Below are positions 1,592 to 46,755 of a DNA stretch of 64,000 nt, piece by piece. Each line of letters begins with the position of its first letter. Position 1 is the stretch's first letter. Source of the DNA: Stentor roeselii (lineage: Eukaryota > Ciliophora > Heterotrichea > Heterotrichida > Stentoridae); assembly GCA_006503475.1 (NCBI GenBank), contig RSEH01000109.1, positions 84,724-148,723 of the forward strand, read 5' to 3'. The translations under genes and the position numbers were made by a program. Under the pieces are notes generated by a model. The model was not told the DNA's origin. It was given only the letters and a program-made list of their open reading frames with translations, and made no database searches.

Positions 1592-1594
1592 TAA

Positions 1595-3688: not shown

Positions 3689-3707
3689 AGTCTTAACTAA
3701 AGTCTTT

Positions 3708-12359: not shown

Positions 12360-12830
12360 TTATGGAGGATTTATTGGGTAGATAAAGGTCTCGATTAGGT
12401 GTAGACTTACCGAGTAACTTAGAGGAAAGCCGAGGAGGAGAGAAAGGAGAAATTTTAAACGAAGGTAAAAAAGGTCTGAAAATTGAGGACTTTCTGAAGG
12501 TTTTGGCTTTGGCGTGGATTCTGGAACGGCTTCTAGAATTTGTTTTAGGTCTGGGGTCATGTATCGTGTGCCGTATAGTTTTAAGTTGTTTTCCATTTGG
12601 TCGATGTCTATCGCGTTTAAATAGCCTTGTGACAAGTCGTAATCAAACCGTTTTTCATCATCCGATAAAGTTTCATATGCTAATTTGATAGCTTGAAAAA
12701 TCTCTGCACTACCAGACTGATCTGGATGATGACTTTTCGCCAAGTTAAGATAAGAACCTCGGATTTCACACTTGCTAGCCTTAGGGTTGACTCTAAGTAC
12801 CTGATATAAACACGTGAACCTTCTTATCAT
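12360..12830 (-). CDS. DnaJ (J-domain) protein, probably mitochondrial, 156 aa
   Basis: Residues 8-70 form a J-domain: LYQVLRVNPKASKCEIRGSY, then the invariant HPD tripeptide in KSHHPDQSG, then AYETLSDDEKRFDYD. The N-terminus MIRRFTCLY has the basic, hydrophobic look of a mitochondrial presequence. A hydrophobic stretch near residues 127-150 (LKFLLSLLLGFPLSYSVSL) may anchor it in a membrane. It would stimulate an Hsp70 ATPase. Its ATG is only three bases after the kinase stop, and a 15-nt intron-like sequence there could fuse the two genes. Confidence 0.9.
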   Translation of the reverse strand: MIRRFTCLYQVLRVNPKASKCEIRGSYLNLAKSHHPDQSGSAEIFQAIKLAYETLSDDEKRFDYDLSQGYLNAIDIDQMENNLKLYGTRYMTPDLKQILEAVPESTPKPKPSESPQFSDLFYLRLKFLLSLLLGFPLSYSVSLHLIETFIYPINPP

Positions 12831-12833
12831 AAA

Positions 12834-12848
12834 CTATTTATTTTTGAC
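12834..12848 (-). other. Candidate 15-nt intron that would fuse kinase and DnaJ genes
   Basis: On the minus strand this reads GTCAAAAATAAATAG: 15 nt, A at position 10, TAG end, and containing the kinase stop. Removal would be phase 0 and join ...SAGDT to F-MIRRFTCLY of the DnaJ protein. The donor GTC differs from the GTA/GTG donors of the other introns here, so this may be coincidence. Confidence 0.3.
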
Positions 12849-14174
12849 AGTATCTCCAGCACTGCAAATATGCAGGTCTAAAGAATTGAAACTACTTGAA
12901 AAAATCTTGAATTTCGGAGAATTATCAATTTTCACTGCTGGGTACTCTGAAAAACGTTCCGCTTTGCAAGCAAGTGTGCTTGAAATAGAAAAAGATGACC
13001 GAAACCATGGATCTTTTAATAAGTCCTGCGCTCTTGGGCGCTTTGCAGGGTCATTCGCAAGCATTTTAATAATAAGTTGCTTAGCCGCAATAGAAAGATA
13101 TTCCGGAAAGACAACATTTCCTCTAAGAATGCTTTTATATAACTCTCCATCACTGCTTCCTTTGAAAGGAAAAGTTCCAGTGAGCAAGACATACAAAAGT
13201 ACCCCAGCAGCCCAGATATCAACAGGAGGTCCGAGGTACTCTTTCCTTGAAACTATTTCAGGAGCCATGTAATTAGGAGTCCCACAAAACATCTTCACTT
13301 TTTTTGTATTAGCAAAGCAAGTAGCGAATCCGAAATCAATGAGTTTTACTTTTTTATTTGAATTGTCAATCAAAGTGTTCTCTAATTTTATATCTCGATG
13401 GGTGATCCCCTTTGAATGGCAGTAGTCGATAGCGAGTAAAAGCTCTTGAAAATATTTATTCGCTTCAAATTCTTCTAGTCTTCGATTCGGCTTTCTTTTA
13501 AGACTGGCGGATAAGGAGTACCCAGAGATGTACTCTAAAATAATAAAAAGGTTTTGTTGAGTGTCAATGTGCTGGTAAAGCTTTACAATGTTAGGATGAT
13601 CGAGTTTCAACAAAATTTTTATCTCAGTTTGAACACTTTTTTGCTGGTTAAGGTCAGTCATTTTTGACTTGTCGTAGATTTTTATCGCCACTTTCCTGTC
13701 AGTTATCTTGTGTACTCCATACTTGACGACTCCATAAGACCCTGTCCCTAAAGTGTTTCCTATTGTGTAGTCACATAATGGCTCTGAACGACTTGGAGAC
13801 TTTATCTTCTCCGGCTTTAATTTTGATAATAACTGGCTTGGCATTCTTATCACGTTTTCATTTTTCACTGATGGACGAGATGGAGTTTTTTTCGGTGAAT
13901 AGGTTAAAGTCGTGTTTTTAGCTACTGGCTTTGAATGAGGTCTTATTCGATTTTCAGTTGTTTTCACTTCTCTTGGCATGCTCAGTTCTAGTTTTTTCTC
14001 AGAAGGCTGTGAAAAGTTTTCCTTTTTTTCTGAATCTTCTTCGACCTTAGGGTGAAGGTTGAACCTTGTAAGCCAAGAGTTGAACTTTAAAGAAATCGTT
14101 GATGGAGTTTTTTTTGATTGAGGAGTTGAAACTTGTAGATTTGATTTACTCCTGACTTGGACTTTTACTATCAT
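12834..14174 (-). CDS. Ser/Thr protein kinase, CAMK-like (SNF1/MARK type), 446 aa
   Basis: The N-terminal ~130 residues are basic, Ser/Pro-rich and disordered. The kinase domain spans about residues 135-392: glycine loop GTGSYGVV, catalytic lysine in VAIKIYDK, HRDIKLEN, DFGFA, GTPNYMAPE and DIWAAGVLLY, all intact, so it should be active. HRDIKLEN and the lobe DPWF end are typical of the CAMKL group. A T residue precedes the PNYMAPE segment, suggesting activation-loop phosphorylation. The C-terminal 45 residues are unrelated to known regulatory domains. It is followed after 3 bp by the DnaJ gene. Confidence 0.93.
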   Translation of the reverse strand: MIVKVQVRSKSNLQVSTPQSKKTPSTISLKFNSWLTRFNLHPKVEEDSEKKENFSQPSEKKLELSMPREVKTTENRIRPHSKPVAKNTTLTYSPKKTPSRPSVKNENVIRMPSQLLSKLKPEKIKSPSRSEPLCDYTIGNTLGTGSYGVVKYGVHKITDRKVAIKIYDKSKMTDLNQQKSVQTEIKILLKLDHPNIVKLYQHIDTQQNLFIILEYISGYSLSASLKRKPNRRLEEFEANKYFQELLLAIDYCHSKGITHRDIKLENTLIDNSNKKVKLIDFGFATCFANTKKVKMFCGTPNYMAPEIVSRKEYLGPPVDIWAAGVLLYVLLTGTFPFKGSSDGELYKSILRGNVVFPEYLSIAAKQLIIKMLANDPAKRPRAQDLLKDPWFRSSFSISSTLACKAERFSEYPAVKIDNSPKFKIFSSSFNSLDLHICSAGDTVKNK

Positions 14175-20659: not shown

Positions 20660-21937
20660 ATGATATCTTTGCTAATTCTGACATTCACAACAATACCTAC
20701 TGAGAGCTTCTATATCGGAGATTGGAATGGCCAAATCCTCGACTTTTCCTCTAAAAGCGGACTAACCTACTTTGCACTATCATCGACCTACGACAGATGC
20801 AGCGTGGTGTTATTCAATGGTCACTGGAGATCAGAAGATTTCAAAGCATTGAACTGCAGTATACAAGCCATTCATAACACAGGAAGACTTCTGGTCTATT
20901 CAACCGGTATCTCCAACCAGTCCTTGACAATAGAAGCCAACATAACAGGAGATATAAAACTTTCAATCTTCAACGAAAAATCCGAAATTTCCGGAACTTT
21001 TTCATCAGTCCCAAAATACCTCTCCATCAATTTTTCAGCCTCAGAAGCACTTTTCGACGCCTACATAAAAAAAATCTACTTTTTTATCATTCTTTTCACT
21101 TTCCTAAAAACTTTAGAATTTTACATCTGCCGGCAAATCCTTTCGAAAATTTCAAATCGCCTTTTAGCCCAAAGTATGAGTTTATCTTCGATAATCCTGT
21201 CATCGACAGTGGACCTTTTTTATCTTTTGTGGTCTTTTGAAATAGTGGGAAAATATGTAAAGTTTAAATAGCTGAGTCTTATCGAGTTCATGATTTTATC
21301 ATTGTCGTGTCTGGTGCTTTTGAGAGAAAAATCAAGGATTTTCGACCGTGCAGTGAAATCTCAGTCTTTAAGTCGCCGTCGTCATGGTTTTTCGACTTAT
21401 ATGTTTATTTCAGCGCTTTATATCACAACTCTTAACACTTTATACTACTTGAATGTTGTGGCTTCCAACATGGTCTTCATTCCGCATATTGTAAAAAACT
21501 TAAGAAGAAGAAGTGTTTCTAAATATTTGATCGCTACTTTAATAGCAAGTCAACTTCTTTTGACACTTTCTATTATTTGCTGGGAGGATAACTTTTTGGT
21601 ATGGGAACCTAATTATTACTTATCTGCTGGCGTTGTTGGGGTTGTTAGTTTGCAGATGGTTTACTTGTTTAAAAAATCTCAAGTTCGTGATGATGCGGCT
21701 CTTGATGGTGACTTGGAAGACCCTCTGGGTTTTGATGAGATACCGATTTTAACGGATAGTTCTTTGGGACCGATAAGTGCTTCGTGTCCAATCTGCCTAA
21801 CAGACCTTCCACCATCAGGTCTAGTAAGAACAAGCTGCATGCACTGGTTTCACTTATCCTGCATCCAAGGTTGGCTTCGTATAAATTCAGTCTGTCCAGT
21901 ATGCAGGACTGAAGTATTTTCACTATACAGACGATAA
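20660..21937 (+). CDS. Multi-pass membrane RING-H2 E3 ubiquitin ligase, Tul1/FLY-like, 420 aa, one intron
   Basis: Exons are 20660-21256 and 21272-21937. The order is a signal peptide (MISLLILTFTTIPTESF), a lumenal beta-rich domain of about 120 residues, about six membrane helices between residues 138 and 340, and a C-terminal RING-H2: CPICLTDLP, then CMHWFHLSCIQGW and CPVCRTE, with all C3H2C3 ligands present. This topology is that of Golgi/endosomal Tul1/Dsc1 in fungi and FLYING SAUCER in plants, which ubiquitinate membrane proteins. The start context is ATAAATG. The B-box/Kelch gene follows after 27 bp. Confidence 0.88.
21257..21271 (+). other. 15-nt intron in the membrane RING ligase gene
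   Basis: The intron is GTAAAGTTTAAATAG, phase 0, with A at position 10 and a TAG end. Splicing joins WSFEIVGKY to LSLIEFMILS, connecting the lumenal/helical half with the RING half. Confidence 0.92.
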
Positions 21938-23328: not shown

Positions 23329-23823
23329 TCACTTCCTCGTCTTAATAAACCTTCTATAATTCCTTTCCATAGGTCTCGTCGTTACCAAGAAACTATTTCG
23401 ATCCAGGTTCAATTTAGGATAAACCTTAAACTTATAATTCACAGTTGTCGGCTTCGAAGGTATCAGCTGTTGCAGTCGTTCAATATTTTCAATATCAAAA
23501 AGTGAAATCTTATCAACAGTGCTCGAACGAGACCTGATCATTTTCGGTCTAAGTCCTTGAGGAACGCTGAAGTTTTTTCTATGAGGGAACTTATTTGGGT
23601 AGGACTTTGGAGCATTTTCCACTTCTAAGACAATGCTATCAGAACGAGGAAGAAAAGATTTTACAGTTCTTTTCGGGGTCTTGTAAGGACTGAACTTTAC
23701 TTTAAAAGAGTTGGAGAAGCGGTTGTCGTTAGTAGGGATGAACCTTTGATAGCATTTAAAAGGTGAATCGTCCCAAGTGGGTAAAGTGAACAACTGGTCG
23801 CTTCCTTTCGAGATGCTTTTCAT
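23329..23823 (-). CDS. Basic protein of unknown function, 164 aa
   Basis: The protein is rich in Lys, Arg, Ser, Pro and Phe (FKVKFSPYKTPKRTVKSFLP, RPKMIRSRSSTVDKISLF) and probably disordered, with one short helix (FDIENIERLQQLI). No domain recognised. It resembles other small basic proteins in this window in composition only. Its ATG is 18 bp from the ATG of the divergent GH31-like gene, so the two must share a promoter or initiate inside each other's transcribed region. Confidence 0.75.
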   Translation of the reverse strand: MKSISKGSDQLFTLPTWDDSPFKCYQRFIPTNDNRFSNSFKVKFSPYKTPKRTVKSFLPRSDSIVLEVENAPKSYPNKFPHRKNFSVPQGLRPKMIRSRSSTVDKISLFDIENIERLQQLIPSKPTTVNYKFKVYPKLNLDRNSFLVTTRPMERNYRRFIKTRK

Positions 23824-23841
23824 ACTTAAAACTAATAAACT

Positions 23842-26292
23842 ATGGAAAAACTCAAGAAAATCATCACAAAAAAATTGATTTCTGGGTTTTCAGTAACTAT
23901 CTTGATCTCTTTTTTCAGCGTTTTTCTTGGAGTTGTTTTCATGTCTGCCTCGAAACAGAAGGTCTCTTCAATTTTCATTGAATTGAAACCGGAGCCTGTT
24001 GTGAACTCTGACTATCCAGTCTATCGAGTGCAGAAAATTCAGTACTTGTCATCACAGATCACTGCAGTTTTAAAGCTAGAATCAGAAGGGAGTAGTAAAT
24101 ACGGGCCTAATATTGACTTCTTGTCTTTTCAGGCTGTTTTTGTTGATAAAAACGTGATTCGATTTCAAATCACTGATAAACCGCGAAAACTTTGGCAATT
24201 GGATGAATTTAACTTTACCTCGCTTTATAGCAACAATAACTATGAACTTTTTATCAACAACTATCCTTTTGGGGTTGAGATTAAAGATAAAAAAGATGGG
24301 AGTAGTGTTTTTAACTCGATTGGTTTGAACTTTTACTTTAGTCAGAGGTATTTGGAAATTGGGACTTTTCTTAGGGAGGGAAGTTTTAAGTTTGGAGTTG
24401 GGGAAAGGAAGGGAAATTTGATGCTGCCGATTGGAAATCACTCTATTTGGACTAATAGTGAAAACTCTGGACATCATCCATTGTTTTTAGAGGTTTTGAA
24501 TAAAAGCTCTAGTGGGATTTTTTTTCATAATTTTAATGCTATGCAAATTGAAGTTGGGAAAAGTCAGTTAAAGTTTAGGACTACTGGAGGAGTGATAGAT
24601 TTTTTTATATTCCTCGGAAAAACCGGTGAAGACATAATCAGAAACTTTCATACAATTCTAGGTCCTCCCGACCTGCCTCTTTTCAGCGATCTAGGCTACC
24701 ACTACGGTGAAAAACTAACTTCCTCAGAATCCCTTCTCAACTCTTTAACCTATTTAGAAAAGCAGCAAATTCCAGTGGACCGTTTATGGCTGAGAAACTT
24801 TCTTTCACCAACAAAAAGTTTCGAAATTTCTGAAGATTTCTCAGGATTAACCTCTAAATTAAGCGAGTTCAACACCGAGCTTTTATTAGAAGTTTCATCA
24901 GAGATCAGTGAAAACTCTCAGTTCTTCGAACTTTCAAAAAAAAGTCTTCTGCCATTTAAGGCGAATGGTGCAAAAGGACCGTCATATTACCTTGACTGGT
25001 TCCATCAAGACTCAAGTAAAGTCTGGCATGAGGTTCTCGAAGATTTGATTACAAAAACAAATGCTACAGGTTTGAGCCTGACTGAAAATGAGGTCTCGAC
25101 AGGTGAAAGTTCATCAAGGTCATCATTTAACCTGCCTTTCGAGCCGATGACTTGTTTGGAGTGTGGGACGATTCCTTTGGATACTTCTCATGCGAATTCA
25201 TTCAAAGAAATCGACCTTCACAGTTTATGGGGAGATATGCAGGTAAAGGCTAGCAGATCTTTTTATCTAAAAAAAAATCAAAGACCCTGCATTTTTTCTT
25301 CAAGTTCCCGTTCAGGTACTCCATCATTTCGGACATTCAGCATAAACCGTGCGAATTGGGACTTATTCCGAGAAAGCATAAACTCAGTCCTATCATTTGA
25401 GATGTTCGGAATTCGCTCTGGTTCCAACATCTGCGGTTTAAAGACTTTAGGACGACTAGAAATGTGTCTTCGCTGGCACCAAATCAGTTCAATGCTTCCA
25501 ATGATGATAAACTTAAAAGACGATAAAGCTTCAGAGTCTCAAGTCTTCGACAAGACGATTTTACCTGGAATTCAAGAAGCGATAATGAAAAGATACTCAT
25601 TATCACTATTTTTTTACTCTTTATTTTTTGAGTCTTCACTTCATGGCGGGTCGATCGTAAAGCCTGTTCTTTTTGAATTCTTAGAAGACCAAAGCGTGCT
25701 TTTTCCTCATCAGTTCTTGATAGGCTCTTGTTTATTAGGAGTTTTTTCGTTATTTGAAAAAAGTGATGAAGTCTTGGCTTATTTTCCTAGAAGTCGGTGG
25801 TTTGGACTTTGGGATGGAAAGGAAATAATTGGAAAGGGAAATAGTTTTGATGTTGATATCAGGGAAGGATTTGAATTGTTTTTAAGAGGAGGTTTCGTTG
25901 TACCTCTTGTTGACTCGCAGGGTGTTAGGAGGATACTTGATGTTAGGAAAAAAGGACTTACGCTGGTTGTAGCTTTAGACGATAACTATAAGGCTCGAGG
26001 AGTTTTTTACGTTGATGATGGAATCTCGCCTGACACTTTAAAATCCAAGAAATTCACAAAAGTCACTGTAGAAGCAAGAAAAGAAGAATATTTAATCATT
26101 AAAGTGACCAGTGTCATTCGTGGATACCTACAAGATTTCAACAGTCTTGTGAAAGTCAAGGTTTTCGGGTACCAGACAGTGCGACAAGTCCTTCTAAACA
26201 ACCAGTACCTGAACTTCACTTTCCAAAAAGAAACCCTCGAGATTCTTCTTTCAGTGAATTCCTTCGAAAATCATGAAATTCTAGTCTTTTAG
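23842..26292 (+). CDS. GH31 alpha-glucosidase homologue lacking catalytic residues (pseudoenzyme), 816 aa
   Basis: A type II membrane protein: one hydrophobic anchor at residues ~13-35, then a lumenal GH31 fold. Family landmarks are kept: FKFGVGERKG near residue 185, the sugar-mutarotase-like N-domain, IMKRYSLSLFFYSLFFES and the C-terminal beta domain. The catalytic motifs are not. The nucleophile motif WIDMNEPS of active enzymes reads SLTENEVS, with Thr where Asp should be. The acid/base HWTGD reads SINRA, and GADVCGF reads GSNICGL. It is therefore unlikely to hydrolyse glycosides but could still bind glycans in the secretory pathway. The frame is intact, so this is not a decaying gene. Confidence 0.88.
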   Translation: MEKLKKIITKKLISGFSVTILISFFSVFLGVVFMSASKQKVSSIFIELKPEPVVNSDYPVYRVQKIQYLSSQITAVLKLESEGSSKYGPNIDFLSFQAVFVDKNVIRFQITDKPRKLWQLDEFNFTSLYSNNNYELFINNYPFGVEIKDKKDGSSVFNSIGLNFYFSQRYLEIGTFLREGSFKFGVGERKGNLMLPIGNHSIWTNSENSGHHPLFLEVLNKSSSGIFFHNFNAMQIEVGKSQLKFRTTGGVIDFFIFLGKTGEDIIRNFHTILGPPDLPLFSDLGYHYGEKLTSSESLLNSLTYLEKQQIPVDRLWLRNFLSPTKSFEISEDFSGLTSKLSEFNTELLLEVSSEISENSQFFELSKKSLLPFKANGAKGPSYYLDWFHQDSSKVWHEVLEDLITKTNATGLSLTENEVSTGESSSRSSFNLPFEPMTCLECGTIPLDTSHANSFKEIDLHSLWGDMQVKASRSFYLKKNQRPCIFSSSSRSGTPSFRTFSINRANWDLFRESINSVLSFEMFGIRSGSNICGLKTLGRLEMCLRWHQISSMLPMMINLKDDKASESQVFDKTILPGIQEAIMKRYSLSLFFYSLFFESSLHGGSIVKPVLFEFLEDQSVLFPHQFLIGSCLLGVFSLFEKSDEVLAYFPRSRWFGLWDGKEIIGKGNSFDVDIREGFELFLRGGFVVPLVDSQGVRRILDVRKKGLTLVVALDDNYKARGVFYVDDGISPDTLKSKKFTKVTVEARKEEYLIIKVTSVIRGYLQDFNSLVKVKVFGYQTVRQVLLNNQYLNFTFQKETLEILLSVNSFENHEILVF

Positions 26293-32171: not shown

Positions 32172-32990
32172 TTACTGAGTACTGCAAGCCTCTCCAGAAA
32201 CACTCTCAGCCTGTACCTCAATAATCTCCTGCATCAATTCACTAATCAAAGCCCTACACTCCTTAATCATCTCAAAAGCGTTACTTCCCTGTCGAATCTC
32301 CTCAAAAAAAACAGGCCTATTCTTAAGATCAAAAGCCCTTCTAAAGCACTCCCTAGAACTTTGCAACAATTTCAAAATTTCACCTTCAATTTTAACATCT
32401 TCCACAAATTTCTTCCTTTCATTATGTTTCAAGTTTTCTTCAATTAAAATCAAATTTTCTTGCCTAACAACCGCAAGTTCATCCTGACAATTTTCAAGTT
32501 CCTTGTTCAATTTCTGTATTTCCCCAAATTGTTCCTGTATTTTTTTAAGAAATTCTTCACCCAAATCATGTTTTTTTGATTTTTCCTGAAGATTTAAAGA
32601 AATTTTTTCAGTTAATTCAGAGATTTTTGAATCACTTTCCGATTTTTGTAACTCAAGTTGATTTTCCAGAAGATTTATTTTTTCTTCGTATTCTAAACGA
32701 GAAGATCGAAAGTTTTCTTTAGTTTTCCTCAGTTCTTCTTTAATCTTCAAGTGTTCATTAGGAAGGTCAATATTTTTCGAACTTCCACAGATAGACTGAA
32801 ATTGTTTAACTTTTTGTTTAAAAACAACGAGTTCTTCTTCCATCCTTTTCGATTTGTATTCTTTTTCCAAGTACTTTTCCCTTAAAACTTCATTTTCAGT
32901 GACAAGTTTCTGATAATTTTTCAAAAGTTCAGTAATTTCCAAGTCCTTCTTCCGAAGAGCGAGAAGAGTTTCATTGGGTTGTTTTTCCAT
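32172..32990 (-). CDS. Coiled-coil protein, 272 aa
   Basis: Nearly continuous heptad-rich helix from residue 5 to about 210 (ENLLALRKKDLEITELLKNY-type, EEKINLLENQLELQKSESDS, LNKELENCQDELAVVRQENL). A more ordered C-terminal helix follows (GEILKLLQSSRECFRRAFDL and IKECRALISELMQEIIEV). No motor or known domain. A cytoskeletal or Golgi tether role is possible. I took the first ATG, at 32990. This start lies only 12 bp from the divergent TAF9 start. Confidence 0.85.
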   Translation of the reverse strand: MEKQPNETLLALRKKDLEITELLKNYQKLVTENEVLREKYLEKEYKSKRMEEELVVFKQKVKQFQSICGSSKNIDLPNEHLKIKEELRKTKENFRSSRLEYEEKINLLENQLELQKSESDSKISELTEKISLNLQEKSKKHDLGEEFLKKIQEQFGEIQKLNKELENCQDELAVVRQENLILIEENLKHNERKKFVEDVKIEGEILKLLQSSRECFRRAFDLKNRPVFFEEIRQGSNAFEMIKECRALISELMQEIIEVQAESVSGEACSTQ

Positions 32991-33002
32991 ATACAAGGAA
33001 AT

Positions 33003-33401
33003 ATGGAGGAGCCAAGAGAATATCAGTCAGTGAAAAGAATTCTTAACTCAATGGTGGGAAGGTACACAGATGATGTGCCTTTGATGCTTCATGAGTTCTT
33101 TGATCGATACGTCAGTGAAATACTCGCTGGAGCCAAGATCCATGCGGATCGAAGAAATGAAGAAGTCGCTAAAGACGATGTCTTGCTTTCTATTCAAGCC
33201 AGGGAACAGTTTTCTTTCAACTCTGGACAAAACATTGAAGAACTCAAGCTGCAGGCTTCTATTTTTAATAAGGAAAAAAAACTTCCTAATGTCAGTGATA
33301 AAAACGCTTTGCTATTGCCTAATGAAGAGTTCTGTCTTTTAGCGCCAAATAAACAAATTAAGAAGAAAAGTAATGCCATGGATATTGATAAGATTTATTA
33401 G
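33003..33401 (+). CDS. TAF9: TFIID/SAGA subunit TAF9, 132 aa
   Basis: A histone-fold protein. The start MEEPREYQSVKRILNSM corresponds to the TAF9 start (PRDAQMMAQILKDM in human), which fixes the initiator at 33003. The histone fold continues with LHEFFDRYVSEILAGAKIH and DDVLLSIQAREQFSF. The conserved TAF9 C-terminal signature LLPNEEFCLLAPN is present (LPPDRYCLTAPN in animals). It pairs with TAF6 in TFIID and SAGA, in the nucleus. The upstream start codon of the divergent coiled-coil gene is 12 bp away. Confidence 0.9.
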   Translation: MEEPREYQSVKRILNSMVGRYTDDVPLMLHEFFDRYVSEILAGAKIHADRRNEEVAKDDVLLSIQAREQFSFNSGQNIEELKLQASIFNKEKKLPNVSDKNALLLPNEEFCLLAPNKQIKKKSNAMDIDKIY

Positions 33402-33487: not shown

Positions 33488-35434
33488 CTAGGTTTTTATT
33501 AAGATATTTTCTTTACAAATACAATAGTCCAAGTTGCAGTCATCCAAATCAAAACTAGTCATCTGGATAAACACTTTAGTTTCATTCACCTGAAAAGTAG
33601 TAGCAGGGTAGCTCTGTACAGGTAAATAGTGCTTAGAATGAACGATTCTTTTAAAAGTGCAAAAGTTAACTCTTCCTTTAAACCTCAAGTCCTTATCAAC
33701 AACACCTTCAAACTCATAAAGAGTGTCCCATCCTCTCCCATAAGGCATAAGTTCAAATTTTTTAACTTGCAAGTCTTCAACCTGAGGAGCTAAACATTTT
33801 TTCTGACTTCTAAAGCTACAATACTCAAAAGTGTTTTTCACCAGGTCTAAAATTTTCATCTTAACCACCAAGTCGAATTGATCTTTTTTGTCAATAATTT
33901 GAAATTCTTTGATATTACAAAACATGCGAGTGACTCCAATGTCTTCACAAGTCCTGTCCTTTTTCGGACTTTCTCTAAAAAAACTGATGACGTCATCAAC
34001 TTGGATCTTTTTCTTCTCATTCAAATACTCTTCTAAGGTCCATCTTTCATATGGAAAAAAAGCGATTTCCTTCATAGACAAGTGAATATCATATCTTCCA
34101 ATCAATTCCTCAGAACTTTCCTTTAAACTCTTTAAACTTTTCCACTTTCTCTCAATTCCAGGAGAACAAACCAGAAAAGTCAAAGGTGTTCTTTGGTCCA
34201 TAAAGCCTTTTTCATTAAATTTCATATTTGGGTTGATCCTTCCATGATCTCCAAGTAAAAAAATAACGATTTCTTGATTTTGTTCCTGGTACCATTCAAG
34301 AGTTTTCCTTAAAAAAGCGACAAGGTCTTTATCAACAGTTTTAACATTTCCAGAGTTTTCATGAGCAGCGTCCATATGAACATAAGCAAAACGATTGTTT
34401 TTTTTATAGTTAGTAAGATACTGAAACGTGTAATCAAGTGAGTAAAAATGTGAGTCTTCCTGCCCTAAACATCTTTGTTTCTCTGAAAAATCATGAAACC
34501 CGAAAACCCTAAAAGCGACTTTCCAGAAGTTAACAAAAACATGATCCGCGTAAATTTTTCGTCCAAAAGATTTTACCATGAAATCGAAAACTGTGTCATA
34601 AGAAAACATTGTTGTGTAGCCTAGACGGGAAAAAAACCTCCAAATCGAAAATTCCTGTAATTTTTGATAGGCTGGGTATGAAGATAACTTTTTGTAGTCC
34701 TCGCCTTGCAAGAACTTATCGTGGAACTCTTCAGATTGACCGTAAATTAAAGGAACCATGTTAGGACGAGTGTTGATTCCTGTTGTTGTCGACACTTTAA
34801 AGTCTATAAAATCATAACTTTCAAGAGATTCCAGATATTTCACTGTTCGTGGCCAGTTAATCCGCGCGCTGGCTCTAGAAACTGAATCAAAAATAAGGAT
34901 AAGTACTGTAAATGGCTTTTTTTCAGTGATTTTTAATGTTTTAGAGATTTCTTCTGCTTTTTTAGAAATTGAGTCGTCATAGTTGTTGAATACAAAAGCG
35001 AAGTAGTCTTCTTTGTATGAAGAACACTTTACTATTAAGTGTTGAGCTTCTTTCTTTCGTTCGTAGTCGTATTTCCAAATGTTTCCTGCTCCGATCGACC
35101 CTCCAAGGAACTGAGGCTGGAGAAGGTCTTGATTGAACCTCGGGTTTTCTTCAAGACAGTCAATGTAAAGTTTTTTGCCTTTGAAAAAAACTTGAGAGTC
35201 ACTTTTGGGACATTCGGGATATTCTTTATATTTCCAGAAGACTTTCACTTCTTCTTGAGAAAAATGTAAGGATCTGATTCTTTCTCTGCCTGAGACTTGA
35301 TGGAATAAGGTGTTCACTACCACTGATGATGACTTTAGTGGATCGTTTGAGATGGAAAATAAGGAGGCTTGTAAAAAATAGTAAAGAATGAAGACCGCAA
35401 TGACTATAGAGATTTTTATTGTTAGTTTTTTCAT
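33488..35434 (-). CDS. DUF229 sulfatase/alkaline-phosphatase-fold membrane protein, 648 aa
   Basis: A type II membrane protein with a signal anchor at residues 3-25 (LTIKISIVIAVFILYYFLQA), which fixes the start at 35434. The extracytoplasmic domain has the DUF229 landmarks: VLILIFDSVSRASARINWPR at the metal-binding N-end (Asp-Ser), TRPNMVPLIYGQS, GYTTMFSYD and the metal site LLGDHGRIN. DUF229 proteins belong to the alkaline phosphatase/sulfatase superfamily and their substrates are unknown. A Cys-rich C-terminal domain of ~120 residues follows (LDDCNLDYCICKEN). Its ATG is only 7 bp from a divergent ATG. Confidence 0.9.
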   Translation of the reverse strand: MKKLTIKISIVIAVFILYYFLQASLFSISNDPLKSSSVVVNTLFHQVSGRERIRSLHFSQEEVKVFWKYKEYPECPKSDSQVFFKGKKLYIDCLEENPRFNQDLLQPQFLGGSIGAGNIWKYDYERKKEAQHLIVKCSSYKEDYFAFVFNNYDDSISKKAEEISKTLKITEKKPFTVLILIFDSVSRASARINWPRTVKYLESLESYDFIDFKVSTTTGINTRPNMVPLIYGQSEEFHDKFLQGEDYKKLSSYPAYQKLQEFSIWRFFSRLGYTTMFSYDTVFDFMVKSFGRKIYADHVFVNFWKVAFRVFGFHDFSEKQRCLGQEDSHFYSLDYTFQYLTNYKKNNRFAYVHMDAAHENSGNVKTVDKDLVAFLRKTLEWYQEQNQEIVIFLLGDHGRINPNMKFNEKGFMDQRTPLTFLVCSPGIERKWKSLKSLKESSEELIGRYDIHLSMKEIAFFPYERWTLEEYLNEKKKIQVDDVISFFRESPKKDRTCEDIGVTRMFCNIKEFQIIDKKDQFDLVVKMKILDLVKNTFEYCSFRSQKKCLAPQVEDLQVKKFELMPYGRGWDTLYEFEGVVDKDLRFKGRVNFCTFKRIVHSKHYLPVQSYPATTFQVNETKVFIQMTSFDLDDCNLDYCICKENILIKT

Positions 35435-35441
35435 TATTATT

Positions 35442-35888
35442 ATGCAATATCGAAAGAAATTAAACATTTCTGACTTGTTTATTACTGGAACTGCCAGCCC
35501 TTACAAATCTCCTTCATCGAAGGTATCGTCTATTGACCTGGGAAACAGAAAAGTTTCTGCAACACCTGATTCAAAGAAATCCTACACTAACTATTCATTG
35601 AAGAGCAAGTGGTACATGAAAGGACACAAGTTTACCACAATCTACCAAGCAAAAGCCCCTAAACCCGCACCTAAACTTTCATTAGCTGGTACAACCCACA
35701 CTTCATTTAATGGGTCTCAACTACGTCCAGCTTTATTGCTTCAACAGAAAATATTCTCAAGAATGCGAAATCAAAACAGTCTTCTAATGACGAAAAAGCA
35801 GCCTCCAAAGTCAGCATCTTTGCAAAGAAGAAGCAGTTCAAAAAACTTGCAAGTTGATTTCCATGAACTAGAGTCATGGATAACATAG
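35442..35888 (+). CDS. Small basic protein of unknown function, 148 aa
   Basis: The protein starts MQYRKKLNISDLFITGTASP and is Ser/Lys/Pro-rich throughout (IYQAKAPKPAPKLSLAGTTH, KKQPPKSASLQRRSSSKNL), ending HELESWIT. Probably disordered, no membrane segment or known domain. The in-frame sequence upstream of 35442 lies inside the coding region of the divergent DUF229 gene, so I took the first ATG outside it. That leaves 7 bp (TATTATT) between the two start codons. Confidence 0.72.
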   Translation: MQYRKKLNISDLFITGTASPYKSPSSKVSSIDLGNRKVSATPDSKKSYTNYSLKSKWYMKGHKFTTIYQAKAPKPAPKLSLAGTTHTSFNGSQLRPALLLQQKIFSRMRNQNSLLMTKKQPPKSASLQRRSSSKNLQVDFHELESWIT

Positions 35889-37591: not shown

Positions 37592-40153
37592 TTAGAAAAC
37601 TGAGCAATTCGAGCAGGCTCTATTTGAAGTCGACTCTCTTTTAGCACCATGACTATTCATTTCGTTCCTTTTGATATCACTGAGTGAGTTTTTTTGCCAG
37701 CTTTCATGATCTTTTTCTCCTAAACCCTGATGATTATTCTTAGTTTTTTTACTTTCTTCTTCAACTCTTCTAGAATTTTCATGACTATTAGAATGTCCCT
37801 TTTCTTCATCCTTATGTTGATGTTTTTCTACAACTATTTGATTTTCTTCCTTCAAGCCATATAAACCTTCATCTTTATTTATTTTTCCACTTTTTGAACT
37901 TTCTTCATCATTTTCAACATTAACACCCTGAGCATCTTTGATATCAAGAACAACTTTCTCGTCATTATTTTTTCCTTTTTTTTCTTTTTCCCCTTTTTCC
38001 CCTTTTTCCCCTTTTTTCTCTTTTTTCTCTTTTTTCTCTTTTTTCTCTTTTTTTGAGTCACTCGACTTAGAACTGTTACTTTTCATCTCCTGACTTGAAA
38101 TCGAATGACTCGAGCTAGAACTCAAAGATTTTTTCCTCTGCTCTTCAGGAACAGGGTCAAGATTTTCATTTAATTTCTTGAAAGGAGGGTCATTAATATT
38201 TTCATAAATCATGATATCTTTATAATTCGCTTCATTTAATTCCGTAGGTTCAGTTTGAATCCGTTTTAAAATTTCAGTTTCATCAATTCCAGAAGAGTTA
38301 CTCGAGTCTCTTTCATGAATTTGACTATTATCAATAACAACAGCCTGATCAAGTTCCGAGTGTTTTTCCTTTGAAGACTTTGAAGACTTCGAAGACTTCG
38401 AATCCATCGAACTTGACGATCGAGACATTTTTTTTTCTTTATTTTTATGTTCAGGGCTGAGAGCATTTTCCAGAACTTGTAATTCCTGCAAAGTTTCTTC
38501 TTCAGAAGCGCTATATTCTTCATCTTTCACTGGAATTGAAGACTTCCGGCCGACTTCTTCTTCAAATTCGATTGGATTGTGACTCACTTCCATTGAAAAG
38601 TCAGACTTGTCGTTAACGTTCACGAAATGACTTCCTCCGTATATGTCGATGCTGCTGATATCTGCGAATGGATGGCTTTTTACTCGCTGATGGTCTTCTG
38701 ACTCTATTGTTGCAAGAGGAGAGCTCAGGGGAATCGTGTCTAAAACTTCTAAAGATCTTGAACTACTTGAACTGCTTGAACTGTTTGAACGACTTGGCTT
38801 TGATTCGAATAGTTTGTCTGTGCTGCTTAGATCGGTTAGTCTTCCTGGAGCTTCTTTTATTTCGATTGTTTCTTTAGGATTTGGTGAGTTTCTTTTGGAG
38901 GAATTTGAGGAATTTGAAGGAGGTTTAGAGGAATTTGAAGGAGTTTTTGAGGACTCTTTGATTTCGGAGGATTGGGGAATAGATTCATGTAGATCAACTT
39001 GTGGGATTGAACTTGAACTCGAACTGGAACTTTGACGTTTATGATGGATCATAGGGAGAGTCTCTGAAGGTTGATGGGTGTTAATTGGTGGAGACTCATA
39101 ATTCAAATCCTTTGTAGGAAAAAAAGGTTCTGATTTAATTTCTTTACTTTTCGAACTGCTTTGAGATTTAGAAGACCTGCTCTGTCTTTCATTTTCTTCA
39201 TTTTTTTTCAATTCCTCCAAATGATCACTTTTCCCTGAGATTACTTTTTCATTTTCTTTATTTCGAGGTTGATTGATATGAGAAAATTCATCAGTTGGGA
39301 TTTCAAAAGTTTCAAATTTCGATTTTTTATTTTTTTTCTCTGTAGTCTCTTTTGTATAAGTCTCAGGGAATTCTTTAAGATTTGCAATGTCAACTGTTTC
39401 CTCAAAAGAACTGCTGCTACTACTGCTTGAGTTTTCTGGGAGTATTTGAAGGTTACTAGTAGGAACATGAGTATCTTCGATAGTCTCTATAAGCACCCCT
39501 TCATTAACCCTACTCTCTTCTTCTCTCAAGACATCTTCATTTTCCTTGACCTGATCCGGCTGTTCAAAGTTTTCTACTAAAACTGGCTGAAGAGTACTCT
39601 CAGTATCTCGAAATCGATACCCTTGCTCAGATTCACTTTTACTCGACGAAGAGCTTTCATCAGAAGATTCACTTTCACTATTCGATTTTTTATTATTTTT
39701 CTTTGTAGACTTTTTAGTATAATTCTCAGGAACTTCTTCAAAATTTTCAATTTCAACTTTTTCCTCTAAAGAACTACTGCTTGAGTTCTTTGGAAGTTTT
39801 TTAGGGTCACTTGTGGGGACATGAGAACCTTCAATGATAGTCTCTATGAATACCTCTTGATTTACTTCTTTCTCTTTCAAGATTTCTTCATTTTGCTTTA
39901 CTTGGTCTCTTTCTTCAAAGGTTTCTAAAGGGACTGGCTGAAGAGTGCTTTCAGTGTCTCGAAATCGGTAGGCTTCTTCGGAATCACTCTCGCTTGATGA
40001 AGAGCTTTCATCTGAAGAGTCACTTTCAGATTCTTCGTCGTGGGCATCGTCGTTGGACTTTTCTGAAGATGAAGACCTTGAATGAGGTTTTGGGTGTTTT
40101 AGATGCTTGGGATCTTCTAGTCCTCGTGATTCAATATCGACAAGACTGGCCAT
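37592..40153 (-). CDS. Large Ser/Glu/Lys-rich disordered protein with C-terminal CaaX box, 853 aa
   Basis: The protein is almost entirely low complexity: runs of Ser (up to eight), Glu and Lys, including KKEKKEKKEKKEKKGEKGEK near residue 700. Two diverged tandem units of ~117 residues start with YRFRDTESTLQPV and contain HVPTS and PENSSSS. CK2-type acidic Ser clusters are abundant. The chain ends RACSNCSVF. The last four residues, CSVF, fit a CaaX prenylation motif, with a nearby Cys that could be palmitoylated. It may be a membrane-tethered polymer or docking scaffold. No enzymatic domain. The start context is ATAAATG. Confidence 0.85.
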   Translation of the reverse strand: MASLVDIESRGLEDPKHLKHPKPHSRSSSSEKSNDDAHDEESESDSSDESSSSSESDSEEAYRFRDTESTLQPVPLETFEERDQVKQNEEILKEKEVNQEVFIETIIEGSHVPTSDPKKLPKNSSSSSLEEKVEIENFEEVPENYTKKSTKKNNKKSNSESESSDESSSSSKSESEQGYRFRDTESTLQPVLVENFEQPDQVKENEDVLREEESRVNEGVLIETIEDTHVPTSNLQILPENSSSSSSSSFEETVDIANLKEFPETYTKETTEKKNKKSKFETFEIPTDEFSHINQPRNKENEKVISGKSDHLEELKKNEENERQSRSSKSQSSSKSKEIKSEPFFPTKDLNYESPPINTHQPSETLPMIHHKRQSSSSSSSSIPQVDLHESIPQSSEIKESSKTPSNSSKPPSNSSNSSKRNSPNPKETIEIKEAPGRLTDLSSTDKLFESKPSRSNSSSSSSSSRSLEVLDTIPLSSPLATIESEDHQRVKSHPFADISSIDIYGGSHFVNVNDKSDFSMEVSHNPIEFEEEVGRKSSIPVKDEEYSASEEETLQELQVLENALSPEHKNKEKKMSRSSSSMDSKSSKSSKSSKEKHSELDQAVVIDNSQIHERDSSNSSGIDETEILKRIQTEPTELNEANYKDIMIYENINDPPFKKLNENLDPVPEEQRKKSLSSSSSHSISSQEMKSNSSKSSDSKKEKKEKKEKKEKKGEKGEKGEKEKKGKNNDEKVVLDIKDAQGVNVENDEESSKSGKINKDEGLYGLKEENQIVVEKHQHKDEEKGHSNSHENSRRVEEESKKTKNNHQGLGEKDHESWQKNSLSDIKRNEMNSHGAKRESTSNRACSNCSVF

Positions 40154-41649: not shown

Positions 41650-44600
41650 ATGGATTATAGGAAAAACTTATGGGGTGATAGAATTTCTGAGATGCTCAGA
41701 AAAACCGAAGTAAACTTGCTTCGCCTCAGCAACCCATACTGCGAAGAAACCTGGAAATACCTAAACACTCATAAACTATCAGAACCCATCCAATCGCCAA
41801 AAAGTCTTCATCATCAAAAACAGTTTATCAGAGAAGAACCAGAAGAATACATCAGCCAAGCTAAAGAAGAGCTTGAAAAATGTTTTCAAGATTTGGAAAA
41901 AATCATCAGTTTAAAGTTCCGCAATAACAGAGAAGAAATTCAAAGTTTGAGTGACCGAACTGGCAGTTTTGAAATTTGGTTTCAGCAGACTGAAAAAACT
42001 GTGGAAATGATTAGTAAGCAAATTAAAGATATAGACAACAGGTTTAAAATTAGCTTTGAAGGGTTGAGTCGAGAAGTTTCAGAGAAAGTTGAAGTCAATG
42101 AGCTTGAAAGACTCGTTGAGGAAATAAGAAAATCAAATAACGAAAAGTTTCGAAGTATTAAAACTGAAATTGATGAGTTTAAATTAAAAGAGAATACTCG
42201 AAAAGAAGAATATATCCAAGAATTTGACATACTTTTTCTTGACTTTCAAAAAAAGTTCATATCAAAGGTAGAATATACAAGACTCAAAGAAAGTTTTAAT
42301 CACATTGAAGAATCCGATAATCATCTAGAAAATCAAAGCGACCAAAAACTTTTGAAATTAAAGAAAAATGTGGAAAATATGTCAAATTTCATAAACGAAA
42401 GCTTAAACGACCAAGACTCAAAATTTTCTCAATTTTCTGACCATTTCAATAAAAAATTAATTGAAATAAATCTCAACCTGACAAAATTAAAAGAAATCGA
42501 AGCAGAAAATACAAAAGAAATAAAAGAAGAAATAGAAAAAATTATGAGCATGGCTGACACGACAAGACTTGAAAGAAGACTATCAACAGCCGAGAAAACT
42601 TTAAAAAAAATTCCTGAATCGCAGAAATTTGATTCAAGTATCTTTGTTGAAAGAGAAGAAATCATCTTTTTGCAGAATCGATTTGAAGAAGTTTTAAGAG
42701 AAAAGAAAATTTTAATGAAAAAAATTGAATATTTGGAAGAAAAGGTTGAGAATGTTGAAGAAATAAAAGTTAAAACGAAGAAACAGAAGTTAAAAATAGG
42801 AAGGACTGAAGGTGTTGAAATAGTTTCGATTGGGAAAAAAAATGATGAACAGTTTAAGAAGAAAAAGAGGAAATTTTCTATGGAAACTCAGTTTATTACG
42901 ATACCAAGAGCGAAAAAACCGAAATTGTCTATGAAGTCATATTCGATTCTGGTGTCGAAACCGAAGAAACATCGATTGTCTTTAGAAACTAGTTCAATGT
43001 TGATTAAAAGACAAAGAAAACCGAAATTATCTTCTAATATTACTTGGACGACCTTCATACACCCTATAAAGCCAAAACTTTCGACATACAAAGAGTCACT
43101 TTTAGTATCAAAACCAAAAGTTCATCCTCCAGATTCAGGAATCCAGTTCTTTGCATCCCCTTTAGAAATCAATAAAAATTTTAACGAAAATGGGTTAAAA
43201 AATCCTTCATTTAACCCTAACTTTCAAAATGAGAAGTTAAAAAATCAAGACCCAGGATTTGTTGATTTTGGAAAATTTCCTATTCAAGATATTCCTAAAA
43301 TTCAAAATTCTGAAAATAAAGAAAATCCTGTATTTGTTTTAAAATTTGATAAAGAAAAGCCTAAGCTTATCGAACATTTAGATGAAAAAGTAAAAACTGG
43401 TAAAACTGAAAATGAAAATTTTCTTGATATAGGTGTTCAGAATGTTGAGATAGAATTAAAAGGAGAAGATTTAGATGGTTCTTTAATTGAACTTGATCCT
43501 ATTAAAGCAAAAGGTATTCCTAGGCCGAAAAAATATCAACAAAACATGAATAAGAACAAAGAAGTAGATAAAGGTGATGAAAAAACACCAGAAGAAAGTC
43601 AATCTGATGACTCTATCATGGAACTTGATCCTATTAAAGCAAAAGGTATTCCTCGGCCGAAAAAATACCAGAAAAACATGAATGAAAACAAAGAATTTGA
43701 TAAAAATGATAAAAAAACACCAGAAGAAAGCCAATCTGATGACTCTATCATGGAACTTGATCCTATTAAAGCAAAAGGTATTCCAAGACAAAAAAAATAC
43801 CAGAAGATTGAGAATAAAAAAAAAAAGCATTCAGATGATTTCTTAGAAAACGAAGAAAACCTCTTTCACCTAAAAAACGCAGATGAAATCGAAAACTTTT
43901 ACAACCTTATAATAAAAAATGAAATCAAATATTGTTGTGAAATAGCTGAACAAATAAAACTCTTCCATTCTGAACATCCAGACCATCAAAGAGTTCCTAA
44001 AAATTTAATATCTCCAACTAACCCTCCTCATAATCAAGAAGCACCCAAATCACGACAAGATCAAAAAAAAAATCCTTTGCAGAAAAAATTTTCATCAGAC
44101 GAGAGTTCTGAAAACAAGCCAATTGAAAAATTGAATAAACCTTCATACAACCCACATCCACAGCCCTTCAAACAAACATCAAATGAAACCCCTTTCAAAA
44201 ACTCTATCAAATCTCAAATAGAAACAAAGAAAAATCAACTTTATGACGACTCATCTTCCAAATCAAGTTCCGATTCCAAAAGTATTGAAAAAAAATATCC
44301 AGTATTTCAACCTGAATCTTTTGACACCTTTGCAATACCATCTTCACAATTTCCTTTAAAAACTCAAGAAATAGGAAAATCTGGAGAAAATAAAATTTTA
44401 GAGCTTTCATCATCAGGTCTTCCTAATTCACAAAACAAAAATTTAGACTTGCAGAAGGAAAGTCTTGATATTTTTGCGAGATTACCTGAAAATTCATTAA
44501 TTTCGAAAAATCTTCTTGGAGGTGGGATTAAGGAGCAAGAAACTGACAAAAGGAAAGGGGTTGATAAGGATTCATCTAGCTCTGATACTTTTCATCCAAG

Positions 44601-46755
44601 TCCTCCTAGCCATGGGCCTGTTAATGAAATTGAATCTATCGATATTTTTGCCAAGGTTATTGAAAAGAATCAAGAAAATGTTGGAAAAGATAACAAAAAA
44701 AATACAGAATATGAGAAAATTAGATTGGGTGATGATCACTCTTCTGCCTTCAATCCTCATAGTCAAGATCTTTTTAGTGATCTCTTAACTTTTGATTTTA
44801 AACCCCATGAATTTCCTTCGAGAGTATCTCAAACAAATCTAGAAAATAAAAACCTTTTAACAGGTAAACAAATAGAAACTGATATAAAAACAGCTAATCC
44901 GAAATCAAGTCCTAAATTTCAATTAAAACTTCAAAATCTTGGGAACATAAAACAAGACTTACAAGGAAATAAAGACGAAAACTTCATTCTAAACAATAAA
45001 ACTCCGCTCTTATCTGAATCCAGTTCAGCAAGTCAAGATTATAAAATTATAGCAAATTATAAAGACACACCTTCAAGCGACTTAAATTCAGAAAGTGAAC
45101 ATTTTAAAAATAGAAAATTTTCAGGAAATAAACTTTCTGATGACTCTCAGTCAGAAAGTGAAGATTTTAAACTAAATGAAAAAAAATCTAAAGCAAACAA
45201 AAAAATTTTGATTTACTCAAGTTCAGAAAGTGAAGATTTTAAACTAGTTCCAAAGAAAATCAAGAAAGATAAAAATATTTCAAGTGACTCCAATTCAGAA
45301 AATCATGATTTTAAAGAAATCTCAAAGAATCCGACAACAGAAAAGAAAAAATCGAGTAGCTCTAGTTTAGAAAGCCCAGATTTTAATATAATGACAAAGA
45401 AAACAAATATAGAGAAGAAAATTTCTATTGGTCCCAATTTAGAAAGTGAAGATTTTAAAGTTATTGATAAGAACCCAACAAAAGAAAAGGAATTTTTGAC
45501 TAGCTACAGTTCAGAAAGTAGGGATTTAAATATAATACAAAAAGAGAATCAAATTTTGAATGACTCCGGTTCAGAAAGTGAAGATTTTAAAATAGTTTCA
45601 AAGAAAAACAAGAAAAATAATAGTATATTGAGTGACTCCAGTTCAGAAAATCGTAATTTTAAATTAATTTCAAAAAACCCAACAATAGAAAAGAAAATTT
45701 CAAGTGATTCAAGTTCAGTAAGTCAAGATTTTAAAATAATTTCAAAGAAGATCACTGCGAATAAGAAATTATCGAATGACTCCAGTTCAGAAAGTAAAGA
45801 TTTAGAAAAAATTCCAAAAAATCATCAAAATTTGAATGAATCTAGTTCAGAGAGTCAAGATTTTAAACCAGTTCCAAAGAAAATCACAAAAGATAATATT
45901 ATATCGATTGCCTCTAGTTCAGAAAGTCAAGATTTTAAAAGAATTCCAAAGAACCTAACAAAAGAAAAGAAATTTTCAAGTGATTCCAGTTCAGAAAGTC
46001 AAGATTTTAAAATAATTACAGAGAACCCAACAAAAGAAAAGAAATTTTCAAGTGATTCCAGTTCAGAAAGTCAAGATTTTAAAATAATTCCAAAGAAACC
46101 AACAACAGAAAAGAAAAAATCTAGTGAAACTAGTTCAAAAAGTAAAGATTTTAAAAAAATTCCAAAAAATAATTTAATTTTGGATGACTCCAGTTCAGAA
46201 AGTGAAGATTTTAAATTATTTGCAAAGAAAATCACGAAAGATAATAATGTATCAAGTGACTCCAATTCAAAAAGTCATGAATTTAAAGTAACTGCAAAGA
46301 AAACCGCAATAGAAAATAAAATATCAAGTGACTCCAGTTCAGAAAGTCAAGATTTTAAACTAATCCCAAAAAAAACCTCAAAAAACAAAAAAAAATCAAG
46401 CAACTCCAGTTCAGAACTTTCAAATTCAAACCTCTCCTCAAACCCACCAAAAAAACCCCAAAAATCCAATTCCATCATTTCAAAAACCGCCTCTAACCTG
46501 CCAACACCTCCAAAACTTTCCCAAAACCAAAGACCTCCTTTCGATTTAACTGATTCAAGTAACACCTCCAAATCACCCTCATCCAAAAACGACTCTCCAA
46601 TCGAAAGAAGCAACAACCGAAACCTTTATTCTCCATTTTCATCAAGTTCCAATTCCGAGAGCCAAAATTCAGAATCTTCGTCAAACCACTTCAGTTCAAA
46701 CGAAAGCGAAGAAGAAAATTCAAGCATGTTATCTTCAGGCCTTTACAATAAATAA
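41650..46755 (+). CDS. Giant repeat protein with N-terminal coiled coil, 1701 aa
   Basis: Residues ~1-380 are coiled coil. Residues ~406-492 hold about five basic units of ~21 residues around KPKLSMxS and LVSKPKK. Residues ~608-735 hold three near-identical 44-residue units (MELDPIKAKGIPRPKKYQKN). Residues ~1125-1590 hold about 20 units of 20-23 residues of the form DSSSESQDFKIIPKKPTTEK, alternating acidic Ser clusters with basic stretches. A motif ES-x-D-x-FA recurs three times between them. There is no enzyme domain and no membrane segment. The Ser clusters are CK2-type sites. It may be an elastic or phase-separating scaffold. Start context CTTATAAATG. Confidence 0.88.
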   Translation: MDYRKNLWGDRISEMLRKTEVNLLRLSNPYCEETWKYLNTHKLSEPIQSPKSLHHQKQFIREEPEEYISQAKEELEKCFQDLEKIISLKFRNNREEIQSLSDRTGSFEIWFQQTEKTVEMISKQIKDIDNRFKISFEGLSREVSEKVEVNELERLVEEIRKSNNEKFRSIKTEIDEFKLKENTRKEEYIQEFDILFLDFQKKFISKVEYTRLKESFNHIEESDNHLENQSDQKLLKLKKNVENMSNFINESLNDQDSKFSQFSDHFNKKLIEINLNLTKLKEIEAENTKEIKEEIEKIMSMADTTRLERRLSTAEKTLKKIPESQKFDSSIFVEREEIIFLQNRFEEVLREKKILMKKIEYLEEKVENVEEIKVKTKKQKLKIGRTEGVEIVSIGKKNDEQFKKKKRKFSMETQFITIPRAKKPKLSMKSYSILVSKPKKHRLSLETSSMLIKRQRKPKLSSNITWTTFIHPIKPKLSTYKESLLVSKPKVHPPDSGIQFFASPLEINKNFNENGLKNPSFNPNFQNEKLKNQDPGFVDFGKFPIQDIPKIQNSENKENPVFVLKFDKEKPKLIEHLDEKVKTGKTENENFLDIGVQNVEIELKGEDLDGSLIELDPIKAKGIPRPKKYQQNMNKNKEVDKGDEKTPEESQSDDSIMELDPIKAKGIPRPKKYQKNMNENKEFDKNDKKTPEESQSDDSIMELDPIKAKGIPRQKKYQKIENKKKKHSDDFLENEENLFHLKNADEIENFYNLIIKNEIKYCCEIAEQIKLFHSEHPDHQRVPKNLISPTNPPHNQEAPKSRQDQKKNPLQKKFSSDESSENKPIEKLNKPSYNPHPQPFKQTSNETPFKNSIKSQIETKKNQLYDDSSSKSSSDSKSIEKKYPVFQPESFDTFAIPSSQFPLKTQEIGKSGENKILELSSSGLPNSQNKNLDLQKESLDIFARLPENSLISKNLLGGGIKEQETDKRKGVDKDSSSSDTFHPSPPSHGPVNEIESIDIFAKVIEKNQENVGKDNKKNTEYEKIRLGDDHSSAFNPHSQDLFSDLLTFDFKPHEFPSRVSQTNLENKNLLTGKQIETDIKTANPKSSPKFQLKLQNLGNIKQDLQGNKDENFILNNKTPLLSESSSASQDYKIIANYKDTPSSDLNSESEHFKNRKFSGNKLSDDSQSESEDFKLNEKKSKANKKILIYSSSESEDFKLVPKKIKKDKNISSDSNSENHDFKEISKNPTTEKKKSSSSSLESPDFNIMTKKTNIEKKISIGPNLESEDFKVIDKNPTKEKEFLTSYSSESRDLNIIQKENQILNDSGSESEDFKIVSKKNKKNNSILSDSSSENRNFKLISKNPTIEKKISSDSSSVSQDFKIISKKITANKKLSNDSSSESKDLEKIPKNHQNLNESSSESQDFKPVPKKITKDNIISIASSSESQDFKRIPKNLTKEKKFSSDSSSESQDFKIITENPTKEKKFSSDSSSESQDFKIIPKKPTTEKKKSSETSSKSKDFKKIPKNNLILDDSSSESEDFKLFAKKITKDNNVSSDSNSKSHEFKVTAKKTAIENKISSDSSSESQDFKLIPKKTSKNKKKSSNSSSELSNSNLSSNPPKKPQKSNSIISKTASNLPTPPKLSQNQRPPFDLTDSSNTSKSPSSKNDSPIERSNNRNLYSPFSSSSNSESQNSESSSNHFSSNESEEENSSMLSSGLYNK
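43489..43884 (+). repeat. Three tandem 132-bp coding repeats
   Basis: Copies begin at 43489, 43621 and 43753 (GAACTTGATCCTATTAAAGC). The spacing is exactly 132 bp and near-identity extends to third positions in the core of each copy, so the duplication is recent or kept by conversion. The third copy diverges after PRQKKYQKI. Confidence 0.85.
45013..46430 (+). repeat. About 20 tandem 57-69 bp coding repeats (SES..DFK units)
   Basis: Each unit centres on TCAGAAAGTCAAGATTTTAA or a variant, and encodes S-E-S-x-D-F-K-x-I/V-x-K followed by a basic stretch. Units near 45980-46100 are almost identical. Flanking ones have drifted. Shorter units (~57 bp) lack part of the basic stretch. Confidence 0.85.

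Follow-up and report, generated by a model that had tools for sequence, protein, structure and literature searches.

Initiators that lie next to the start codon, combined with short mRNA leaders, are known from microsporidia and Giardia. In the excerpted text of the report on Encephalitozoon cuniculi (PMC2803860), the mRNAs tested had 5' UTRs of <7 nt. Most coding starts were directly preceded by a CCC-like motif, and an AAATTT-like upstream element was described for ribosomal-protein genes, one head-to-head pair of which lay 35 bp apart. According to the same excerpts, 120 of the 129 overlaps between annotated CDSs disappeared once starts had been corrected, a caution that also applies to start choices such as those made here at positions 35434 and 35442. 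For Giardia lamblia, the available part of PMC3792122 describes an A/T-rich initiator that was mapped by TSS-seq. Among the ciliates, the sections available of PMC7858049 place a TATA-like motif of Halteria ~17 bp upstream of the transcription start. Blepharisma is characterised by short intergenic regions and UTRs and by introns of mostly 15/16 bp, as stated in an excerpt of PMC9942806.

The stretch of DNA analysed here, referred to as the window, comprised 64,000 nucleotides of Stentor roeselii and represents the end of contig C14. Searches covered the genome of 44.4 Mb in 522 contigs. Like the genomes of Paramecium, Halteria and Blepharisma, it belongs to the compact genomes of ciliates. 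In contrast to Blepharisma, which reads TGA as tryptophan, the long ORFs of the window, with lengths of up to 1701 aa, were open under the standard code. The window contained a head-to-head pair of reading frames starting at 35434 on the minus strand and at 35442 on the plus strand. This arrangement is most likely a further case of the start-adjacent-initiator, short-leader kind known from microsporidia and Giardia. As in E. cuniculi, a short motif was located immediately upstream of starts. Unlike in E. cuniculi, this motif was AATAA-like and not CCC-like, an upstream element was not among the top-ranked words, and the lineage is a different one. The enriched motif was also placed differently than in Halteria, directly before the ATG. 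Whereas the A/T-rich initiator of Giardia lamblia was mapped, both the initiator and the leaders of S. roeselii are deduced here from sequence alone. In the literature surveyed, which was covered in excerpts and in which the motif itself was not a search target, there was no report of an AATAA-type start motif in heterotrichs. The excerpts of a Stentor regeneration paper (PMC9371601) contained nothing on leaders.

Positions 35432-35444 of the window read CATTATTATTATG. The minus-strand ATG occupied 35434-35432, the plus-strand ATG 35442-35444, and the 7 bp TATTATT lay in between. Two divergent start codons separated by 7 bp, as described in the initial annotation, were thus confirmed. The same annotation had regarded 35434 as a start that must be used and 35442 as the first ATG of the plus-strand gene outside the DUF229 coding region. 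The minus frame, which contains an extra in-frame ATG at 35467, is limited upstream by a stop at 35503. On the plus strand, the frame extends back to a stop at 35382 and contains extra in-frame ATGs at 35400 and 35388. Because of these upstream ATGs on both strands, neither start is forced. What stood was that 35434 and 35442 are the better of the candidates tested, by codon score on both strands and, on the minus strand, also by start context and by comparison with a paralog. Use of the outermost ATGs (35467 and 35388) would produce an 80-bp overlap between the ORFs. The longest-ORF rule therefore creates an apparent overlap where a 7-bp gap is preferred here, and a start-adjacent motif would help in choosing start codons when such genomes are annotated. 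The longest-ORF starts 35467 and 35388 were rejected by codon score on both strands; start context and paralog alignment spoke against the minus-strand candidate only.

The minus-strand gene (33488..35434) encodes a protein of 648 aa affiliated with DUF229 (PF02995). The Pfam match had an E value of 4.6e-44 and 151.4 bits, compared with a curated cut-off of 25. MKKLTIKISIVIAVFILYYF formed the N-terminal hydrophobic anchor of this protein. The position of such anchors was determined in 38 DUF229-like ORFs of at least 400 aa, 32 of which had one Met at or before the most hydrophobic N-terminal stretch. In 29 of these 32 ORFs, the stretch began 0-10 residues after the Met. The corresponding distance was 9 residues from 35434 and 20 residues from 35467. 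The closest DUF229 paralog among the fetched loci, L014:4316+, was 48% identical and aligned from the same MKK, opposite M35434. An in-frame stop was present three codons upstream of the MKK start of this paralog. The minus-strand extension from 35435 to the ATG at 35467 had a codon score of -7.0 bits over 11 codons and was classified as non-coding. With a value of 2.22, the start context at 35434 came close to the median of 2.59 obtained for 95 unambiguous starts, while 35467 reached -0.41. On this basis, 35434 was judged to be the preferred DUF229 start and the 35467 extension to be unused. DUF229 is a large family in the genome, with 66 matched places and with matches clustered on the contigs C5, C137, C339, C349 and C509.

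The 7-bp spacer (35435..35441) reads AATAATA on the minus strand, and AATAATA-ATG matched the AATAA-type start motif. Read on the plus strand, TATTATT-ATG did not match. The motif was thus found at the minus-strand gene of the pair only. AATAA was present in the last 15 nt before 33 of 73 unambiguous starts, compared with 7 of 73 at -40..-26. In a larger, overlapping set, 38 of 108 starts had AATAA in the last 15 nt; 500 shuffles gave 14.9 on average and never more than 25. Further out, 10 occurrences were counted at -40..-26 and 8 at -70..-56. By this excess (38/108 vs 14.9), S. roeselii has a start-adjacent motif as do ultra-short-leader genes of the microsporidian and diplomonad kind. The 26 top-ranked positional words, obtained from 92 starts, all fell into windows beginning at -19, -16 or -13, and some of them included the ATG. 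The AATAA-type motif could also be a translation-initiation context instead of a promoter.

Out-of-frame ATGs were counted as an indirect indicator of leader length. At -10..-3, one was found compared with a column-shuffle mean of 5.5 (P 0.03), and the five ATG anagrams occurred 5 to 10 times each in the same interval. The counts were 8 at -20..-11 (mean 8.6), 11 at -30..-21 (9.7) and 10 at -40..-31 (12.0). Still further out, at -80..-61, the count was slightly under the mean (18 vs 24.7, P 0.08). The depletion next to the start is statistically weak (1 vs 5.5), and the lack of depletion at -30..-11 is more useful. Assuming ribosomal scanning from the 5' end, the pattern points to leaders of ~10 nt.

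The explanation that we favour, by a modest degree of confidence, is a head-to-head pair in a very compact heterotrich ciliate genome with start-adjacent A/T-rich initiators and leaders of ~10 nt or less. Transcription of each gene would begin at a short A/T-rich initiator near its own start codon, leaving an mRNA leader of ~10 nt at most. Given the 7 bp between the ATGs, each initiator would extend only a few codons into the neighbouring gene and the two signals would overlap. Two full promoters buried in the opposite genes would therefore be unnecessary. In favour of this explanation stand the AATAA excess before starts, the scarcity of ATGs at -10..-3, the near-median context at 35434, the spacer match on the minus strand, other divergent starts 9-18 bp apart and the excess of back-to-back motifs over reversed patterns. 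The initial annotation had argued that neither a promoter nor a 5' UTR fits into 7 bp, so that either transcription starts and promoters lie inside the partner's coding sequence or the mRNAs have almost no leader. A conventional leader together with a promoter would indeed need more space than 7 bp. The exclusion of any 5' UTR went too far, given the 5' UTRs of <7 nt in the excerpts on E. cuniculi (PMC2803860). Of the two alternatives, mRNAs with almost no leader appear to agree better with the narrow zone poor in ATGs and with the motif next to the start than do whole promoters inside the partner gene.

A more specific form of the start-adjacent-initiator explanation is put forward tentatively. 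The core promoter may essentially be an A/T-rich initiator of 10-15 bp at the start codon, the mRNAs may be almost leaderless and divergent genes may be packed to distances of 7-14 bp. One spacer would then serve as the initiator for one gene and would be overlapped by the first codon of the other. The role of the motif in directing transcription, the leader length and the expression of the plus-strand ORF are all predictions made from the genomic DNA. Probably, the locus has the geometry of a bidirectional promoter pair, with a short shared upstream region of 7 bp, provided that the plus-strand ORF is a gene. If mapped, the pair would show the minimum of non-coding DNA that a ciliate nucleus needs for transcription starts in two directions. 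Mapping would also test whether leaders go below the ~18-19 nt of Paramecium and Halteria. The degrees of confidence given for the favoured explanation and its rivals refer to overlapping readings and are not meant to sum to one.

The main rival, which we consider rather unlikely, corresponds to the first alternative of the initial annotation and assumes leaders of the ordinary short length of ciliates, ~20 nt. Leaders of this length are documented in excerpts for Paramecium, with a median of 19 nt (PMC5485702), and for Halteria, with an average of ~18 nt (PMC7858049), and they would include none of the upstream in-frame ATGs (35467; 35400, 35388). Each transcription start and core promoter would then be located inside the coding sequence of the partner. 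As a consequence of leaders as long as those of Paramecium, the two mRNAs would be antisense to each other over ~30 nt, across both start codons. This alternative is opposed by the out-of-frame ATGs, which were not depleted at -20..-11 (8 vs mean 8.6), and by the top-ranked positional words, none of which lay further upstream than the windows beginning at -19.

The ORF on the plus strand (35442..35888) encodes 148 aa and is basic and Ser-rich. It did not match any Pfam family, and a search of its own genome at E<=1 returned the ORF itself as the only match. On these two results, the idea that it belongs to a family was rejected. Its codon score was +19.4 bits or 0.132 per codon, compared with quartiles of 0.128, 0.176 and 0.218 for long genes. 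As its background, this codon model used 58,778 bases of intergenic sequence defined more strictly. Free ORFs of 110-220 aa (n=53) had a mean of 0.186 per codon. Embedded control ORFs of the same length range (n=19) had a mean of 0.038 per codon, yet 6 of the 19 reached at least 0.138 and were thus above the plus-strand ORF. An earlier order-4 coding model yielded +7 bits only. Its non-coding training set comprised 117,679 bases called intergenic, in which leftover genes are suspected, and for this reason the codon model was preferred. Taken on codon usage and frame length, the plus-strand ORF is probably coding.

The start of the plus-strand ORF was less clearly marked than that of the DUF229 gene. 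The in-frame extension 35388..35441, with ATGs at 35388 and 35400, lies mostly inside the DUF229 coding sequence. It scored -4.6 bits over 18 codons, which classified it as non-coding, and was judged unused. The context scores were 0.29 at 35442, 0.17 at 35388 and -5.91 at 35400. The context at 35442 was better than only 20% of real starts and hardly distinguished 35442 from 35388. The choice of 35442 over 35388 was made because of the codon score and the position of 35388 inside the DUF229 gene. The next in-frame Met of the ORF is codon 59, at 35616.

These properties bear on a second alternative, which we consider quite unlikely. The plus-strand ATG at 35442 could be incidental, being the complement of the CAT that precedes the minus-strand AATAATA-ATG motif, and the plus-strand ORF would then start elsewhere or would not be a gene. 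One further copy of the 13-mer CATTATTATTATG coincided exactly with the start of another DUF229 paralog (contig C27, locus L038). Since the facing ATG opens 4 codons only at this paralog, an ATG of this kind can arise incidentally beside a minus-strand start. The weak plus-strand context (0.29), the lack of a homologue in Pfam and in the own genome, and the 6 of 19 embedded control ORFs that equalled the per-codon score are also consistent with an incidental ATG. An incidental origin is difficult to reconcile with a frame that stays open for 148 codons (P ~1.7e-6, calculated from the intergenic stop frequency) and with the codon score of +19.4 bits. In the order-4 model, moreover, three of the four top-scoring 54-nt blocks directly followed 35442.

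The spacing of divergent genes was determined in 37 sequences with 344,198 bases, comprising the window, 28 loci around DUF229 genes and 8 arbitrary loci (L030-L037). The sample contained 32 divergent ORF pairs, whose gaps had a median of 269 bp. When starts were set by the longest-ORF rule, the gap was <=20 bp in 4 of the 32 pairs and <=50 bp in 5. Tight pairs, with a gap of <=20 bp, made up 3 of the 10 divergent pairs of the window and 1 of the 12 at the DUF229 loci; the 10 at the arbitrary loci included none, and the smallest divergent gap there was 38 bp. The result for the arbitrary loci lowers our confidence in the start-adjacent-initiator model. The uneven spread of tight pairs, the weak plus-strand context and the lack of a motif match on the plus side of the 35434/35442 pair count against it as well. 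The same holds for the plus-strand ORF having no homologue in Pfam or its own genome and a codon score that embedded control ORFs can equal, for the mostly weak contexts at the other tight pairs of the window, and for two of three opened motif loci that lacked long facing ORFs.

Within the window, a coiled-coil-like ORF (start 32990, minus) and a TAF9-like gene (start 33003, plus) shared the region 32172..33401, with 12 bp between the ATGs. The TAF9-like gene showed a TFIID-31kDa Pfam match from residue 3, and neither side of this pair had an in-frame upstream ATG. Another pair (23329..26292) consisted of an ORF that had no Pfam match (start 23823, minus) and a glycosyl hydrolase family 31 gene (start 23842, plus), with 18 bp between the ATGs. 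The start contexts at these other tight pairs of the window were mostly weak, with values of 0.40, 0.27, -2.51 and 2.63. At locus L027, 9 bp separated the ATGs of a DUF229 gene and an HMGL-like gene. In-frame stops were present 1-2 codons upstream of both starts, which makes the 9-bp gap firm. The same locus contained convergent ORFs with abutting stops (1443-4784, 0 bp), the plus-strand ORF ending at 2729 and a minus-strand DUF229 ORF at 2730.

The fifth pair was found through a motif search. Within 30 bp, back-to-back CATTTATT..AATAAATG occurred 14 times and back-to-back CATTATT..AATAATG 50 times. The 13-mer was found 15 times across the 44.4 Mb of the genome, forward in 9 cases and reverse in 6, with 35432-35444 among them. 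The reversed-pattern controls, which preserve base content and not dinucleotide content, gave 5, 20 and 3 places, respectively. Three of the 14 places were opened, and one of them held a gene pair. At this locus (L040), an unnamed ORF of 209 aa and an MCU gene were separated by 14 bp between the ATGs, with stops directly upstream, inside the gap, on both sides, which makes this case firm as well. The other two places, L039 and L041, were rejected as gene pairs: the ORFs facing each other there were no longer than 31/10 and 29/9 codons, introns not being considered. The 35434/35442 pair is therefore not one of a kind, since other tight divergent pairs are present in the same genome. The arrangement is rare in this sample and not unique. 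That one shared, regulated bidirectional promoter drives genes co-expressed as functional partners is highly improbable: the head-to-head geometry is the only point in its favour, the tight partners had no evident common function (DUF229/HMGL-like, coiled-coil-like/TAF9-like, unnamed ORFs with MCU and glycosyl hydrolase), and the closest DUF229 paralog, L014:4316+, faced another DUF229 gene at a distance of 1,666 bp with no ORF of at least 60 aa between.

Among tandem pairs, 23 of 75 had a gap of <=50 bp. The 18-bp tandem gap at 21257 is probably a 15-nt intron, and the tandem-gap counts are therefore upper bounds. Candidate introns of the GTA..YAG type that bridge frames, identified by frame only, numbered 12 at a length of 15 nt, while all other lengths between 11 and 40 nt had 0-6 candidates each. 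In heterotrichs, ~95% of introns have 15 bp and the rest 16, according to an excerpt of a Loxodes paper (PMC11441545), and the peak of candidates at 15 nt agrees with this length. One 18S rRNA pattern gave no match. Candidates joining open frames were present at window positions 2803, 4454, 10441, 17510 and 21257, the last of which would merge 20660-21271 and 21290-21937 into one gene.

Several other features of the window were recorded. At 12360-14174, 3 bp separate the stop of one minus-strand gene from the start, at 12830, of the next. We take the two to be a J-domain-like gene (start 12830, minus) and an upstream protein-kinase-like gene, and a 15-nt GTC..TAG candidate intron could also join them. 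In the part from 60001 to 64000, the G+C content fell to 23.6% at the contig end, and visual inspection of the final 601 bases revealed no telomere-like repeat. In the ORF of 1701 aa at 41650-46755, an SSSESQDFK-like unit was repeated many times in degenerate form, and a further Ser-rich ORF was located at 37592-40153.
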